A stretch of 64,000 nt of DNA from Amycolatopsis bartoniae (GTDB taxonomy: Bacteria; Actinomycetota; Actinomycetes; Mycobacteriales; Pseudonocardiaceae). The stretch spans positions 1-64,000 of the forward strand of contig NZ_JACHWH010000016.1 of NCBI RefSeq assembly GCF_014191255.1. Reading direction: 5' to 3'. The notes beneath the pieces were generated by a model. That model was not told where the DNA came from. It was given only the letters and a program-made list of their open reading frames with translations, and did not search any database. The translations under genes and the position numbers were made by a program. This document shows positions 1,444 to 9,728 of the stretch, one piece after another; within the stretch, counting starts at the first letter, position 1; every line of letters starts with the position of its first letter.

Positions 1444-4400
1444 ATGGGCCTGACTCGACGGATCCGCGACTGGCCGGTCTACCGGCAACTGGCCGAAAAG
1501 GATCTCACCGGCCGTGGTGCCGCGGCGAAGAGCCGGATCAGCCTGGAGCTCACCCCGCGCACCACCGGCGCGGACAAGGTCGTCAAGTCCGTCTGCCCCT
1601 ACTGCGCGGTCGGTTGCGGGCAGAACGTCTACGTGGAGAACGACAAGGTCACCCAGATCGAGGGTGACCCGGACTCCCCCGTCAGCCGCGGCCGGCTGTG
1701 CCCGAAGGGCTCGGCGAGCCTGCAGCTGACCACCGGTTCGGCCCGGCAGCACCAGGTGCTCTACCGGCGGCCGTACGGCACGGAGTGGGAGCCGCTGGAT
1801 CTGGACACCGCGATGGACATGATCGCCGAGCGCACCATCGCCGCGCGGGCGAAGGGCTGGCAGTGGGAGGTCGACGGGGCACGCACCCGGCGCACGCTCG
1901 GGATCGCGAGCCTCGGCGGCGCGACGCTGGACAACGAAGAGAACTACCTGATCAAGAAGTTGTTCACCGCGCTGGGCGCGGTGCAGATCGAGAACCAGGC
2001 CCGTATTTGACACTCCGCCACGGTTCCCAGTCTGGGAACCTCCTTCGGTCGCGGCGGGGCCACGACGTTCCAGCAGGACCTGCAGAACTCCGACTGCATC
2101 CTCATCGAGGGCTCGAACATGGCCGAGTGCCATCCGGTCGGGTTCCAGTGGGTGATGGAGGCCAAGGCGCGGGGCGCGAAGGTGATCCACGTCGACCCGC
2201 GGTTCACCCGGACGAGCGCACTCGCGGACATCCATGTGCCGCTGCGCGCCGGGACGGACATCGTGTTCCTCGGCGGGATCGTCAACCACGTGCTGCGCGA
2301 GGAGCGCTACTTCCGGGAGTACCTGCTCGCCTACACCAACGCGGCCACGATCATCGCCGAGGAGTTCGCCGACACCGAGGACCTCGACGGGGTCTTCTCG
2401 GGCCTGGACCGCGAGAACCGCAGCTACGACACCGAGACCTGGCAGTACGACGGCGCCGAGGTGCAGGCCGCGTCCGGCCAGCGGGACCAGGAGTGGAACC
2501 GGCGCACCGGTAAGGGCGCCTCGGTGAGCCAGGCGGGCCGCGGGGAGGCCCACGGCTCGGGCGGTGCCGAGATCCAGTCCGAGCCGCAGGTCGATCTCAC
2601 GCTGGAGCACCCGCGGTGCGTGTTCCAGATCCTCAGGCGGCACTTCGCCCGCTACACCCCGGAGATGGTGGAGCAGATCTGCGGCGTTCCGCAGGACACC
2701 TTCCGGCAGGTGTGCGAGCTGCTGGCGGAGAACTCCGGACGCGAGCGCACCACGGCCTTCGCCTATGCCGTCGGGTGGACGCAGCACACCGTCGGTGTGC
2801 AGTACATCCGTACGGCGGCCATTCTGCAGACGCTGCTGGGCAACATCGGCCGGCCCGGCGGGGGCATTCTCGCGCTGCGCGGGCACGCGTCGATCCAGGG
2901 TTCGACGGACATCCCGACGCTGTTCAACCTGCTGCCCGGCTACATCCCGATGCCTCACGCGCACACGAACGAGGACCTGGACACGTTCGTGCAGGCCGAA
3001 GGCACCCGGAAGGGCTACTGGGGCAACCTGCGGTCGTACCTGGTGAGCCTGCTCAAGGCCTACTGGGGTCCCGCGGCCCGCCCGGACAACGACTTCTGCT
3101 TCGACTACCTGCCCCGGCTCACCGGCAGCCACAGCACCTACGAGACGGTGCTGGCGCAGCTGGAAGGCAAGTGCAAGGGCTACTTCCTGCTCGGCGAGAA
3201 CCCGGCGGTCGGCTCGGGGAACGCGAAGATGCAGCGCCTGGGCATGGCGAACCTCGACTGGCTGGTGGTACGGGACTTCTCCCTCATCGAAAGCGCGACC
3301 TGGTGGAAGGACGGGCCGGAGATCGAAAGCGGGGAGCTGCGCACCGAGGACATCGCCACCGAGGTCTTCTTCCTGCCCGCCGCCGCGCACACCGAAAAGG
3401 ACGGCAGCTTCACCAACACCCAGCGCATGCTGCAATGGCACCACCAGGCGGTCGAGCCGTCCGGCGACGCCCGCAGCGAGCTGTGGTTCACCTACCACCT
3501 CGGCCGCAAGATCCGCGAAAAGCTGCTGTCGGCGACGATGGACGAGTCCACATCGGACGAGCAGCGCGAGCGCGACCGGCCGGTGCTCGAACTGACGTGG
3601 GACTACCCCACCAAGGGCCCGCTGGACGAGCCGGAGGCCGAGGCCGTACTGGCCGAGATCAACGGCTGGAACGCCAAGGCCGAGCCGCTGTCCAGTTACG
3701 AACAGCTCAAGGACGACGGCTCGACCGCGTCCGGCTGCTGGATCTACTGTGGTGTCTACTCCGGCGGCGTCAACCAGGCCGCGCGGCGGAAGCCGGGCGG
3801 CGAGCAGAACTGGGTCGCCCCGGAGTGGGGCTGGGCCTGGCCCGCGAACCGCCGCATCCTCTACAACCGCGCCTCCGCCGACCCCGACGGCAAGCCGTGG
3901 AGCGAGCGCAAGGCGCTCGTGTGGTGGGATGCCGAGCAGGGCAAGTGGACCGGCCACGACGTGCCTGACTTCAAGGTCACGAAACCGCCGGACTTCCGGC
4001 CCGGCGAGGACGCCACCGGACCGGACGCACTGACCGGCACGGACGCGTTCATCATGCAGGCCGACGGCAAGGCGTGGCTGTACGTCCCGGCGGGGCTCAC
4101 CGACGGTCCGCTGCCGACGCACTACGAACCGCAGGACTCGCCGTTCGACAACCTGCTGTATCCGCAGCAGCGCAACCCGGTCCGCCAGGTGCTGCCACAC
4201 GAGCACAACCGCTTCCAGCCCAGCGGCACCGAGCCGGGCGCGGAGGTGTTCCCGTTCGTGCTCACCACCTACCGGCTCACCGAGCACCACACCGCGGGCG
4301 GGATGAGCCGCTGGCAGCCCTACCTCGCGGAGCTGCAACCGGAGTTGTTCTGCGAGATCTCGCCGGAGCTGGCGCGCGAACGCGGCCTGGAGCACCTGGG

Positions 4401-4725
4401 CTGGGCCACGATCGTCACCGCGCGCGCCGCGATCGAGGCGCGGGTCCTGGTCACCGACCGGGTGACGCCGCTGAAGATCCAGGGCCGGACGCTGCACCAG
4501 GTGGGGCTGCCGTACCACTGGGGCCCGAACGGGCTGACCACCGGCGACGCCGCCAACGAGCTGATCTCGCTCAGCCTGGACCCCAACAGCCACATCCAGG
4601 AGACGAAGGCCGCGGCGTGCGACATCCGGCCGGGCCGCCGCCCGCGGGGCCCGCGCCGGGTCGAGCTGGTGCGGGACTACCAGCGGCGCGCCGGGATCAC
4701 CGCCGAGACCGGAACGGAGATGTGA
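1444..4725 (+). CDS. fdhA: Selenocysteine-containing formate dehydrogenase, catalytic (alpha) subunit
   Basis: Molybdenum/tungsten bis-MGD oxidoreductase that oxidises formate to CO2, 1093 residues when the TGA at 2008-2010 is read as selenocysteine. Both halves are in one frame. The protein around the TGA reads NQARI-Sec-HSATVPSLG, which aligns with the NQARV-Sec-HGPTV active site of E. coli FdnG as I know it. A [4Fe-4S] site is formed by Cys51, Cys54, Cys58 and Cys86. Later motifs such as HVDPRFTRTSALAD, WTQHTVGVQ and NRRILYNRASAD are typical of the FDH-N/FDH-O family. Unlike FdnG there is no N-terminal Tat signal, so the enzyme should face the cytoplasm. It lies between the small leader protein and the Fe-S subunit, one base before the latter's ATG. 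An automatic annotation would split it into a 188-residue and an 868-residue ORF. Confidence 0.93.
2008..2040 (+). promoter_or_regulatory. Selenocysteine UGA codon with bacterial SECIS hairpin
   Basis: The in-frame TGA at 2008-2010 is followed, after 11 bases, by a perfect 8-bp inverted repeat (GGTTCCCA 2022-2029, TGGGAACC 2033-2040) closing on GTC. If the last A-U pair opens, the apical loop is AGUCU, close to the AGGUCU loop bound by SelB in E. coli fdhF. The UGA-to-loop distance (about 18 bases) also matches that family. A weaker lower stem could form between CCGCC at 2015-2019 and GGCGG near 2053. The hairpin lies inside the coding region, as expected for bacterial SECIS elements. Confidence 0.88.
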
Positions 4726-4726
4726 G

Positions 4727-5611
4727 ATGACCACGACCGATCCCGCCTCGGCCACCGGCTACCGCGACCACCCGCCGCGCATGGGGTTCTTCACCGACAC
4801 CAGCGTGTGCATCGGCTGCAAGGCCTGCGAGGTCGCGTGCAAGGAGTGGAACGCCATTCCCGAGGACGGCATCGCTCTGTCCGGTATGTCCTACGACAAC
4901 ACCGTGGGGCTCGGTGCGGACACGTGGCGGCACGTCGCGTTCATCGAGCAACGCAAACCCCTCGCCCGGCAGGATCCCGGGCTGTACCACGACGTCGACG
5001 TGCTCGCGATGGCCGGCGCGGAGTCCTCTCCGGACTTCCGCTGGCTGATGGCCTCCGACGTGTGCAAGCACTGCACCGAAGCCGCCTGCCTGGACGTGTG
5101 TCCCACCGGCTCGCTGTTCCGCACCGAACTCGGCACCGTGGTGGTGCAGGAGGACATCTGCAACGGCTGCGGCTACTGCATCCCCGCCTGCCCCTACGGC
5201 GTCATCGACCAGCGCAAGGACGACGGCCGCGCCTGGAAGTGCACCCTGTGCTACGACCGCGTCGGCCAGGGTCAGGAACCCGCCTGCGCCAAGGCTTGCC
5301 CGACCGACTCCATCCAGTTCGGGCCGCTCGACGAGCTGCGCGAGCGCGCGCAGGGCCGCGTCCGGCAGCTGCGGGACGCCGGAGTCACCGACGCCCGCCT
5401 CTACGGCGAGGACCCCGGCGACGGCGTGGGCGGTGACGGCGCGTTCTTCCTGCTCCTGGACGAACCCGAGGTCTACGGCCTGCCCCCGGACCCCGAGGTC
5501 ACCACCCGCGACCTGCCGGCGATGTGGCGGCACGTGGCCACCGCCGCCGCCACCCTCGCCGGCGGCGCACTGGCCGCGTTCCTTGGCACGACACTCGGAA
5601 GGCGGAAATGA
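4727..5611 (+). CDS. fdhB: Formate dehydrogenase iron-sulfur (beta) subunit
   Basis: Electron-transfer subunit of 294 residues that should carry four [4Fe-4S] clusters from the catalytic subunit to the membrane subunit. Four cysteine groups are visible in order: CIGCKACEVAC (Cys28, 31, 34, 38), CKHCTEAACLDVC, CNGCGYCIPAC and CTLCYDRV...CAKAC. A single hydrophobic helix near the C-terminus (about 265-290, rich in A and G) would anchor it to the membrane, as in FdnH. It starts one base after the catalytic subunit stop and its stop overlaps the next start as ATGA. There is no Tat signal, consistent with a cytoplasmic orientation of the dimer. Confidence 0.93.
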   Translation: MTTTDPASATGYRDHPPRMGFFTDTSVCIGCKACEVACKEWNAIPEDGIALSGMSYDNTVGLGADTWRHVAFIEQRKPLARQDPGLYHDVDVLAMAGAESSPDFRWLMASDVCKHCTEAACLDVCPTGSLFRTELGTVVVQEDICNGCGYCIPACPYGVIDQRKDDGRAWKCTLCYDRVGQGQEPACAKACPTDSIQFGPLDELRERAQGRVRQLRDAGVTDARLYGEDPGDGVGGDGAFFLLLDEPEVYGLPPDPEVTTRDLPAMWRHVATAAATLAGGALAAFLGTTLGRRK

Positions 5612-6579
5612 ACGCACGTCCTGGACGCGAAGCGCTCACCGGCGTCGCCACCGGCCGCCGGCGCGAACGCGGCGAGCAGCCGATGGTGCCGGATGCCGAA
5701 TTCACCTCCTACTACGGCAAACCCGTCATCAACGCGCCCGTCTGGCACTCCCCCGACATCCCGGGCTACCTGTTCCTCGGCGGCCTGGCAGGAGCCTCAT
5801 CGCTGCTGGGCGCCGGAGCGCAGGCCACGGACCGGAAGGCACTCGCGCTGGCGGCCAAGACCGGGGCGTTCGGCGCGATCAGCCTCTCGCTCGCCGCGCT
5901 CGTGCACGACCTCGGCCGCCCCGCCCGGTTCCTGAACATGCTGCGGGTACTGAAGGTGACCTCCCCGATGAACGTCGGCTCCTGGCTGCTCGCCGCGTAC
6001 GGGCCGCTCGCCGGAGCCGCCGCGTTCTCCGCCGTGACCGGCAAGCTGCCCCGGATCGGCGCGCTGGCCACGGCCGGTTCGGCCACGCTGGGCCCCGCCG
6101 TCGCCGCCTACACCGCCGCGCTCGTCAGTGACACGGCCGTGCCCGCCTGGCACGACGGGTACCGCGAGATGCCGTACGTCTTCGTCGGTTCGGGCGCGAG
6201 TGCCGCGGGCGGTCTCGGTCTCCTCGCCGCACCCGGCCCGGAAAGCGCTCCCGCGCGGAACCTCGCCGTGCTCGGGGCCGCGCTCGAGATCGGCATGCTC
6301 AAGCGGATGGAGCACCGCCTGGGCATGGTCGCCGAGCCCTACCACACCGGCAAGGGCGGCAAGTACCTGCGCGCCGCCGAAATCCTGTCGGCCGCCGGGG
6401 TCACCGGCGCGGTGTTCGGCCGGGGCCTGGTGCGACGGTTGTCCGGAGCCGCGCTCATCGCCGCCTCCGCCGCGACCCGCTGGGGCATCTTCCACGCGGG
6501 CAGGGACTCCGCGAACGACCCGAAGTACACCGTCGTCCCGCAGCGGCAACGGCTGCGGGATCGCGCGACCTCCCGATGA
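5608..6579 (+). CDS. NrfD-type membrane subunit of formate dehydrogenase
   Basis: Integral membrane protein of 323 residues in the NrfD/PsrC family, which passes electrons from Fe-S subunits to the quinone pool without haem. The sequence has about eight alanine/glycine-rich hydrophobic segments and the early motif PDIPGYLFLGGLAGASSLLG typical of the family, then DLGRPARFLNMLRV. The ATG overlaps the Fe-S subunit stop (ATGA). E. coli FDH-N uses a cytochrome b subunit instead, so this enzyme swaps the membrane module. NrfD proteins in some complexes are proposed to contribute to ion translocation; whether this one does cannot be seen. Confidence 0.88.
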   Translation: MNARPGREALTGVATGRRRERGEQPMVPDAEFTSYYGKPVINAPVWHSPDIPGYLFLGGLAGASSLLGAGAQATDRKALALAAKTGAFGAISLSLAALVHDLGRPARFLNMLRVLKVTSPMNVGSWLLAAYGPLAGAAAFSAVTGKLPRIGALATAGSATLGPAVAAYTAALVSDTAVPAWHDGYREMPYVFVGSGASAAGGLGLLAAPGPESAPARNLAVLGAALEIGMLKRMEHRLGMVAEPYHTGKGGKYLRAAEILSAAGVTGAVFGRGLVRRLSGAALIAASAATRWGIFHAGRDSANDPKYTVVPQRQRLRDRATSR

Positions 6580-6724
6580 CGGAGTCCACTACCCGGGTGA
6601 GCTCCGCGGCGCGTTTGCACTGTGCAGGTTTTTGCGGCATCTTTACAGGCAGGAGTGCCGGGAAGTCTGGTCGGCGGCCCGTTCCGACCGGAGCGGGTTC
6701 TTCGCCGACGCCTGGAGCTCACTC

Positions 6725-7942
6725 GTGGTACTCGTTCTCGCGTTCGGCGTCGTCCTGCTGCTGAGCGTGTCGTTGTCCGGGCTCGCGGCCCGGACCGTGC
6801 TCTCGACCGCGCTGCTGTTCCTGCTCGCCGGGGCCCTGATCGGCCAGGGCGGCCTGGGCCTGATCACGGTCCATCCCGCGGATCCGCTGGTCACCTCGCT
6901 CGCCGACCTCGCGCTGTTCACCGTGCTGTTCACGGACGGCCAGCGTGCGAACCTGCCCGCGCTCCGGGAGAACTGGCGGCTCTCCGGCCGGGCCCTGGGC
7001 CTCGGGATGCCGCTCACGATGGCGGGCATCGCGATACCCGCGCACTTCCTCACCGGCCTCGACTGGCCCACGGCGTTCCTGCTCGGCGCGATCCTGTCCC
7101 CCACCGACCCGGTGTTCGCCTCGGCCATCGTGGGCCGCTCCGACGTCCCGTTGCGACTGCGCAGGCTGCTCAACGTCGAGTCCGGACTCAACGACGGGCT
7201 GGCACTGCCGTTCGTCCTGATCTTCCTCGCCACGGCGAGCCACGAGCACTCGCACCTGGGCATCGTCGCGCTCGAACTGGTCGGTGGCCTGGCCCTCGGC
7301 ATCGTCGTGCCGCTCGTGGTCGCGCTGGCCTGGCGGTTGCGGATCCTCACCGCCGAACCGCGCCTGCAGGCACTCGGCCCGCTGGCGATCGCGGTGCTGC
7401 TCTACGCGACCTGCCACCTCACCGGCGCCAACCCCTACCTCGCGGCGTTCGCGGCCGGATCAGCGCTGGCGACCGTCGACAAGACCGCGGCCGAGTGCTT
7501 CGAGCCGTTCGGCGACCTGCTGTCCGAGATCACCAAGTTCGCCGCGCTGCTCGTCTTCGGCGCACTCATCACCGTCGACCGGCTCTCGCACCTCACCTTC
7601 GGCGGCTGGGGCCTCGCGGTGCTGGCGATCCTGCTCGTCCGCCCGGCCGCTCTGCTGCTGTCGTTGCTGCGCACCCCGTTGACCCGGCAGGAGCGAGTGA
7701 CCGCCGCATGGTTCGGCCCGAAGGGATTCGCGTCGGTGGTGTACGGCCTGCTGGCGCTGCAGTCCGGCATCCCCGGCAGCGAGACCGTGTTCGACCTCGT
7801 GGCGGTCACCATCGCGCTGTCGATCGTGCTGCACTCCTCGACCGATGTGCCCGTGGCCCGCGCGCTCCGGGTCGAGCCGCCCGACAACCTGCCCGGGGGC
7901 CGTACCGGCAGCGACGACCTCCAGGCGAACGAAAGGAGCTGA
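6725..7942 (+). CDS. CPA1-type cation:proton antiporter
   Basis: Membrane antiporter of 405 residues, most likely Na+ or K+/H+ exchange, with about 12 hydrophobic helices. Motifs include GAILSPTDPVFASAIVG and NVESGLNDGLALPFV, the paired DP and ND-type core motifs of the NhaP/CPA1 family, and later AWFGPKGFASVVYGLL. The open frame extends further upstream, but those residues are antisense-like. I chose GTG at 6725 because it begins the first hydrophobic helix and has GGAG seven bases before it. The gap from the NrfD gene is about 145 bp, so it may have its own promoter. The next gene follows 39 bases after its stop. Confidence 0.85.
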   Translation: MVLVLAFGVVLLLSVSLSGLAARTVLSTALLFLLAGALIGQGGLGLITVHPADPLVTSLADLALFTVLFTDGQRANLPALRENWRLSGRALGLGMPLTMAGIAIPAHFLTGLDWPTAFLLGAILSPTDPVFASAIVGRSDVPLRLRRLLNVESGLNDGLALPFVLIFLATASHEHSHLGIVALELVGGLALGIVVPLVVALAWRLRILTAEPRLQALGPLAIAVLLYATCHLTGANPYLAAFAAGSALATVDKTAAECFEPFGDLLSEITKFAALLVFGALITVDRLSHLTFGGWGLAVLAILLVRPAALLLSLLRTPLTRQERVTAAWFGPKGFASVVYGLLALQSGIPGSETVFDLVAVTIALSIVLHSSTDVPVARALRVEPPDNLPGGRTGSDDLQANERS

Positions 7943-7981
7943 ACGTGCCGCAGGCTTGGCCGCGGGCAATACTCTGGACTC

Positions 7982-8422
7982 ATGCACGCGAAGCAGATGG
8001 CCGAGGAGTTCCCGGCCGTCGACATCGACTCGGACGCGCTGGCCGCGGCCCGGCTGCTGGCCGAGCACGGGCTGCAGGGCCTCGTCGTCACCAAGGGGCC
8101 GGGCTGCCCGCACGCCGTCCTGCCCGCGGCCTCGGTCGTGGCGTTCCTGGTACCGCGCTACATCCAGGACGACCCTTCCCTGGCGGGCGTGCTGTCGGAG
8201 TCGGCCGCCGACCGGATCGCGGAGAAACTCGCCGGCCGCACGGTCCGGGAGCTGCTGCCCGACCACCCGCCGGAGCTGCCGGTGGTCCAGAGCGACGACA
8301 CCGTCGTCGAAGTCGCGGCCACGATGGCCCGGTTGCGCTGCCCGCTGGTCGCCGTCCTCGAATCCGGCGAGCTCATCGGAGTGATCACCGCACCCCGGCT
8401 GCTGGAGCACGCCCTGCGCTGA
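7982..8422 (+). CDS. CBS-domain protein
   Basis: Soluble 146-residue protein with a CBS pair: a degenerate first repeat at about 5-60 and a clearer second repeat ending [29 protein letters not shown] modules bind adenine nucleotides and usually gate transporters or enzymes. It sits between two ion transporters, which suggests it regulates one or both (inference from context). The bases before the ATG (CAATACTCTGGACTC) include a -10-like hexamer at leaderless distance, so a separate short transcript is possible. Confidence 0.8.
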
Positions 8423-8435
8423 CCGGAGGGGCGCG

Positions 8436-9728
8436 GTGAGCGCGGCGATCGCGATCGCCGTCTTCGTGGTGGCTTACGCGTTCATCGCGACCGAGAAGAT
8501 CCCCAAGATGGTGGCCGCGCTGGTCGGGGCAGGCGTCATCCTGGCCATCGGGGTCGTGGGTTCGGACGAGGCGTTCTACTCCCGGGACACCGGGATCGAC
8601 TGGGACGTCATCTTCCTGCTGCTCGGCATGATGATCATCGTCGGCATCCTGCGCAAGACCGGCGTGTTCGAGTACACCGCCATCTGGGCCGCGAAACGCG
8701 CCCAGGGTTCCCCGCTGCGAGTCCTGCTCCTCCTCGTCCTGATCACCGCGCTCGCCTCCGCCTTCCTCGACAACGTCACCACCGTGCTGCTCATCGCCCC
8801 GGTCACGCTGCTGGTGTGCGACCGGCTCGACACCAGCCCGGTCGCGTTCCTCATCGCCGAGGTGTTCGCGTCCAACATCGGCGGCGCGGCGACGCTCATC
8901 GGGGACCCGCCGAACATCATCATCGGCAGCCGCGGGGGCCTGACCTTCAACGACTTCCTGGTCAACGTCGCCCCGATCGTGCTACTCGAAGTCGCCGCGC
9001 TCGCCCTGGTGCTGCCCTGGCTCTTCCGCGGCTCCTTCACCACCGACCCCGCCCGTGCCGCCGAGATCATGGCTCTCGACGAACGCGAGGCCATCCGGGA
9101 CCCGAAACTGCTGATCAAGAGCGGCGTCGTGCTCGCCGCGGTCTTCACCGGTTTCGTCGGCCACTCGGTCTTCCACCTCGCACCGTCGGTCGTCGCGCTC
9201 GTCGGCGCGGGTCTGCTGGTCCTGATCTCCGGCACGCGGCCGGACGAGTACCTGGCCGGGGTCGAATGGGAAACGCTGCTGTTCTTCGCCGGGCTGTTCG
9301 TGATGATCGGAGCACTCATCCACACCGGGGTGATCGACCACCTCGCCCGGCTCGCCGCCGACGCCACCGGCGGCAACGCCCTCCTCGCGACGATGCTGAT
9401 CCTGTTCGTCTCCGCGCTGCTGTCCGGCGTCGTCGACAACATCCCTTACGTGGCCACGATGAGCCCCCTGGTCGCCGGGCTCGCCGCCGACCTGCCGAAC
9501 CAGACCCACGCCCAGGCCCTGTGGTGGTCGCTCGCCCTGGGCGCGGACTTCGGCGGCAACCTCACCGCCATCGGCGCCAGCGCGAACGTGGTGGTGCTCG
9601 GCATCGCGCTGCGGGCCGGTCACCCCATCTCGTTCTGGGAGTTCACCCGCAAGGGTGCCGTGGTCACCGCAGTCACCGTTCTGCTGGCCGCGCCTTACTT
9701 GTGGCTGCGGTACCACGTTCTGGCCTGA
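8436..9728 (+). CDS. ArsB/NhaD-type ion transporter (IT superfamily)
   Basis: Polytopic membrane protein of 430 residues with about 11-12 helices. Signature segments are [34 protein letters not shown] and, in the second half, [14 protein letters not shown] and [16 protein letters not shown], the duplicated ion-binding repeats of the ArsB/NhaD/P-protein family. Possible substrates are Na+ with proton exchange, arsenite or dicarboxylates; there are no arsenic genes nearby, so Na+/H+ exchange is the better guess. GTG start at 8436 with GGAGG 8 bases upstream and 13 bp after the CBS gene, so the two are one unit. Confidence 0.88.

Follow-up and report, generated by a model that had tools for sequence, protein, structure and literature searches.

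An in-frame TGA in a formate dehydrogenase gene of Amycolatopsis bartoniae and its probable reading as selenocysteine

Ordinary ORF calling divides a stretch of the Amycolatopsis bartoniae genome into two neighbouring pieces on the forward strand, one of 188 aa (nt 1444–2010) and one of 868 aa (nt 2119–4725). The question raised by this locus is whether the pieces are the remains of a decayed gene, two separately translated proteins, or a single selenoprotein whose internal TGA is read as selenocysteine (Sec). The window analysed is a stretch of 64,000 nt (contig 16, bases 1–64,000) from a 7.76 Mb genome assembled into 23 contigs. In the tree described below, the enzymes of two genomes classed in the same genus, G226 and G209, cannot be told apart, over the columns used, from those of Amycolatopsis alkalitolerans and A. 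taiwanensis, in keeping with the genus Amycolatopsis. An earlier note, made from the sequence alone, had favoured the third answer. We arrive at the same view and, with a probability of about 0.96, consider the gene (fdhA) to encode a selenoprotein in which UGA 2008 would be read as Sec, the product being a predicted cytoplasm-facing enzyme that would oxidise formate and deliver electrons to menaquinone.

A single frame across the TGA

With TGA translated as Sec, the frame at nt 1444–4725 (+) specifies a 1093-residue formate dehydrogenase alpha subunit and contains a single TGA inside the coding sequence (nt 2008–2010, residue 189), besides the TGA that forms the terminal stop. The protein belongs to the NCBIfam family NF041513 (formate_DH_Act), scoring 2026.8 bits where the cut-off is 1400; its residues 6–1082 cover positions 2–1067 of the 1067-position profile. 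It also exceeds the cut-off of TIGR01553 (formate dehydrogenase-N alpha; 919.4 bits, cut-off 814.2) and carries the Pfam domains Molybdopterin, Molybdop_Fe4S4 and Molydop_binding. The continuous 1093-residue protein described in the earlier note is thus borne out by the frame itself and by a profile that runs across the join.

A search of the PDB with FdhA returned 49 distinct sequences at E values up to 0.001. The best solved-structure match was 1h0h (680 bits), the segments around the aligned residue reading EHQARI-X-HSATV and NQARI-U-HSATV. In two of the alignments, those to 1h0h and 1kqf, residue 189 falls on the X that denotes a non-standard residue, which agrees with the earlier placing of TGA 2008 at the active-site position of FdnG-type enzymes. 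The same note had called the gene hidden; this holds for mechanical ORF calling, which does split it in two as had been foreseen, but not for the family as a whole, for which the curated model NF041513 exists. Translation of the two pieces as separate proteins might be entertained on the ground that ATG 2119 opens a long ORF. However, the protein families and the solved structures continue across the join, and neither piece would include residues 190–224, which the alignments show to be conserved. This reading was rejected, and we regard it as having almost no chance of being correct.

The hairpin and its conservation with the codon

Immediately downstream of the TGA lies a candidate SECIS apical hairpin (nt 2022–2040, +; GGTTCCC-AGTCT-GGGAACC) of seven pairs, with G 2030 and U 2031 of the AGTCT loop at positions +23 and +24, numbered from the T of the TGA. 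A loop GU at 23/24 is also found in E. coli fdhF. The window contains 1318 TGA triplets on its two strands (639 + 679), and TGA 2008 alone among them is followed by seven pairs and GT in this geometry. When the stretch was recoded synonymously 200,000 times, 688 of the recodings had both features. The stability of the stem was also considered as evidence for a SECIS and was dropped, because the stem energy is unexceptional, with 1880 of 20,000 synonymous recodings folding equally well or better; the folding z-score for the 53-nt stretch was −2.07. The Rfam model SECIS_3 matched nt 2005–2066 with 32.3 bits (E = 1.2e-5), under its gathering score of 63, and a scan of the whole window returned no Rfam family at gathering scores.

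Pairing was counted in 57 sequences of relatives; these derive from 58 different stretches, each 57 bases long, two of which have the same first 48 bases. Paired bases occupied 92.5% of the 399 cells but no more than 67.7% once the partner was slid, and 25 cells were altered on both sides compared with 0.9 in shuffles, although relatedness inflates such counts. The pair that joins the third bases of the Val+5 and Gly+9 codons was altered on both sides in 23 of the 57 sequences (CG 21, UA 21, UG 12, GC 1, GU 1, other 1), while the outermost stem pair was unpaired in 29.

The codon at the Sec position was compared among the best 80 of 588 confirmed loci, and was TGA in 70, TGC in 8, TGT in 1 and TAG in 1. 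All 70 distinct Sec-type stretches have G23 and U24 together with at least six of the seven hairpin pairs, whereas of the 16 distinct Cys-type stretches one has GU at that place and one has six pairs. The stem-loop reported in the earlier note, with its SelB-like loop at the usual distance, is therefore a feature that Sec-type relatives retain. The protein differs along with the RNA: the residue at +6 is Pro in 70/70 distinct Sec-type stretches, and in the 16 Cys-type stretches it is Ala (10), Val (5) or Ile (1) and never Pro. Ala also occupies this position in 1h0h and 1kqf. As a separate observation, the Ser codon following the active-site His is AGC in 16/16 distinct Cys-type stretches and TCC or TCG in all 58 window-type Sec stretches.

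A tree was constructed with FastTree from 139 of 140 intended rows (125 of them different), masking residue 189 and keeping the neighbouring columns; the row left out, L183, is a stretch from genome G218 that stops short of the codon. The 19 Cys rows (L059–L068, L144, L148, L149, L151–L154, L156 and L158) make up one side of a single branch with a support of 100, which lies inside the window-type part under midpoint rooting. Since they form one clade, the contrast between Sec and Cys types represents one event rather than sixteen. Outside the Cys clade, the window copy and L031 (90% identical) group together. These adjacent Sec and Cys clades show the hairpin retained only where it is needed.

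Substitution rates were compared on the two sides of the TGA. Among the five nearest relatives compared, dN/dS was 0.10–0.19 before it and 0.145–0.24 after it, and for the paralogue described below and one Cys relative the values were 0.4–0.6 on both sides. Purifying selection in close relatives is thus alike on the two sides of the codon. A decayed gene, in which a nonsense mutation or a sequencing error has put TGA 2008 into a Cys enzyme, could draw on the existence of Cys relatives (TGC or TGT in 9 of the best 80 of 588 loci). Against this, the same TGA occurs in 70 of those 80 relatives and in the paralogue, constraint is similar before and after it, Sec-type relatives keep the hairpin and Cys-type relatives have lost it, and the Cys rows form a separate clade to which the window gene does not belong. 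A pseudogene or sequencing error was rejected on these grounds, and its likelihood is in our view negligible.

One of the 80 loci (L136, from Geodermatophilus sp. TF02-6) has TAG at the Sec position (nt 6565–6567 of that locus). The tRNA-Sec family match in its genome scored 65.3 bits and has the anticodon cta; ARAGORN names it tRNA-Pyl. The codon and this tRNA match fit the UAG-coded selenocysteine reported for Geodermatophilaceae (PMC5330540).

Selenocysteine machinery and a second formate dehydrogenase

Contig 10 carries selA (425.9 bits), selD (393.3 bits) and a SelB ORF with a SelB-wing_3 domain that scored 246 bits as a whole (cut-off 242.25); in a six-frame search of the whole genome the selB match was 234 bits, which is under the cut-off. 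A tRNA-Sec with anticodon tca (77.1 bits) was found on contig 3 and fdhD on contig 2. The earlier note had proposed to look for selA, selB, selD and tRNA-Sec, and had held that its reading would fall if selB or the tRNA were missing; as all four are present in the same genome, together with fdhD, the reading survives. Its central claim, a Sec formate dehydrogenase made by way of TGA 2008, is likewise supported by NF041513, by these genes and by the conserved TGA and hairpin. By analogy with the known bacterial mechanism, SelB carrying Sec-tRNA-Sec would bind the mRNA hairpin at nt 2022–2040, so that the ribosome would read UGA 2008 as Sec.

The enzyme and the machinery were also compared across 249 sampled genomes of the family, the tallies being uncorrected for kinship. 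The enzyme was detected in 151 genomes (E up to 1e-200) and selA in 170 (E up to 1e-40), with 141 having both. The ten genomes with the enzyme and without selA comprise seven with a Cys copy and three with a TGA copy (82–83% completeness). Both selA and tRNA-Sec are absent from seven of the nine Cys genomes among the matches listed, while tRNA-Sec was found in all 13 Sec genomes searched alongside them. Two genomes (G031 and G115) have a Cys enzyme yet retain selA and tRNA-Sec, and presumably keep another selenoprotein.

A second formate dehydrogenase gene, 65% identical and with its own single TGA and hairpin, is located on contig 10 (nt 171,205–174,417; L018, L021), directly after selD/selA/selB, whereas the window copy lies away from the sel genes. 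In the tree L018 is placed in the other part from the window copy, and the two are therefore old paralogues and not the product of a recent duplication. The genome holds two Sec formate dehydrogenases as judged from their genes. What matters more generally is that a gene split by ordinary ORF calling appears to encode one selenoenzyme, and that the genome of an aerobic soil actinomycete is predicted to encode two.

Partner subunits, orientation and known systems

Downstream of fdhA are two partner genes. The first, fdhB (nt 4727–5611, +; 294 aa), specifies a ferredoxin-type beta subunit that matches Pfam Fer4_11 and scored 199.2 bits with TIGR01582, under the cut-off of 334.7; its number of clusters, probably four, is that of the family. 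The second (fdhC, nt 5608–6579, +; 323 aa) overlaps the end of fdhB and specifies an NrfD-type membrane subunit (PF03916, 40.9 bits, cut-off 25.8). Among the best 80 of 588 loci, 58 have a match to fdhB and 62 one to the NrfD-type gene; in Streptomyces these matches mostly precede fdhA. The joining of the enzyme to an NrfD membrane subunit, as the earlier note had it, is confirmed by the PF03916 score, and in relatives too the NrfD-type gene is a neighbour of fdhB. From what is known of these families, selenium at residue 189 would be a ligand of the bis-MGD molybdenum and participate in the oxidation of formate to CO2, and electrons would pass from the Fe4S4 cluster of the alpha subunit to FdhB, on to the NrfD-type subunit and from there to menaquinone.

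As none of the three subunits has a Tat signal, the most likely orientation of the catalytic part is towards the cytoplasm. An in-frame stop (nt 1438–1440) lies immediately 5′ of the fdhA ATG and so leaves no room for a longer, Tat-bearing N-terminus; the N-terminus of FdhA has no Tat motif, inspection by eye of the N-termini of 40 relatives revealed no Tat signal, and the N-termini of FdhB and NrfD likewise lack one. The lack of an FdnG-type signal noted earlier is thus corroborated. Export by an unrecognised route, with the enzyme facing outwards, is improbable on the same evidence, although the membrane segments offer it some latitude. A crude hydropathy scan of 19 loci gave one C-terminal hydrophobic segment of FdhB in every case, as also predicted for the window copy; it is often followed by basic residues, and the charge favours neither side clearly. 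The scan of NrfD was inconsistent (zero to six segments, some rows being cut by the end of the locus).

An ORF of 98 aa just upstream of fdhA (nt 1144–1440, +) has no Pfam match over cut-off; matches to it occur in 19 of the best 80 of 588 loci, and it is probably linked to fdhA. Divergent from fdhA is a second-copy, ctaC-like gene for cytochrome c oxidase subunit II (nt 385–1035, −; Pfam COX2, 63.3 bits, over cut-off), to which the other subunit II match of the genome is 44% identical. By raw count, CtaC-like genes lie near fdhA in 9 of these 80 loci, and their association with it is only suggestive. The window begins inside the adjacent gene, which is probably that of subunit I. After the operon (nt 6695–9728) come genes for a cation/proton antiporter (NhaP), a CBS-domain protein and a CitMHS/ArsB-type (ArsB/NhaD-like) transporter, and because matches to them were found in 0 of the 80 loci they were excluded from the system.

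Taken jointly, these results allow a further proposal, which we put forward tentatively and hold to be somewhat less likely than its negation: that a portion of the protein beside the active site is dictated by the SECIS, the Sec loop reading V-P-(S/G)-L and that of the single, hairpin-less Cys clade V-(A/V/I)-G-L, and that the window copy, as the second Sec formate dehydrogenase, has become differentiated and is coupled to an alternative oxidase that reduces oxygen in the aerobic respiration of formate. If the SECIS does dictate the protein in this way, the family would provide a natural before-and-after test of what an RNA signal costs an enzyme.

Among known systems, E. coli FdnG (1kqf) aligns with the alpha subunit over both halves and at the Sec position, and the TIGR01553 score is over cut-off. 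The Tat system exports FdnG, which has a cytochrome b as its membrane partner; the window enzyme differs from FDH-N (FdnGHI) in having no Tat signal on alpha and in a third gene of the NrfD type (PF03916) rather than a cytochrome b gamma subunit. The closest solved match is the formate dehydrogenase of Desulfovibrio (1h0h and others), with the same HSATV after Sec; that enzyme is periplasmic and depends on tungsten or molybdenum. A literature search that covered few subscription papers found no paper joining a Sec formate dehydrogenase and NrfD.

The formate dehydrogenase alpha subunit is, with SelD, the most widespread bacterial selenoprotein, and many aerobes are among the Sec users (PMC5029168). 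UGA/Sec formate dehydrogenases are described for Corynebacterium aurimucosum (PMC2830990) and Streptomyces incarnatus (PMC4498112), and within the genus for A. mediterranei, with sel genes and tRNA-Sec, the same account giving none for A. orientalis (PMC4048454). Compared by description, the A. mediterranei enzyme could be of the window type or of the sel-locus type. Three Sec formate dehydrogenases are reported from Actinomycetospora chiangmaiensis, in which formate removal was selenium-dependent and FdhA1 was detected by proteomics; FdhA1 and FdhA2 are given without accession in the table of that 2020 paper (PMC7176365). The FDH1 and FDH2 alpha subunits of strain DSM 45062 are described there as membrane-bound, with 1078 and 1089 residues and Sec, and resemble the window enzyme by description. 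FDH1 of that strain has selA/selB in its own cluster, whereas in A. bartoniae the window copy lies apart from the sel genes and it is the paralogue that stands beside them. Novelty is low, because NCBI has the curated model NF041513 for this family and the A. mediterranei and Actinomycetospora enzymes have been published. Sec formate dehydrogenases are already known in actinomycetes, and fdhA, a near full-profile match to the actinomycete family NF041513 in which no difference was found, adds a member to that published family.
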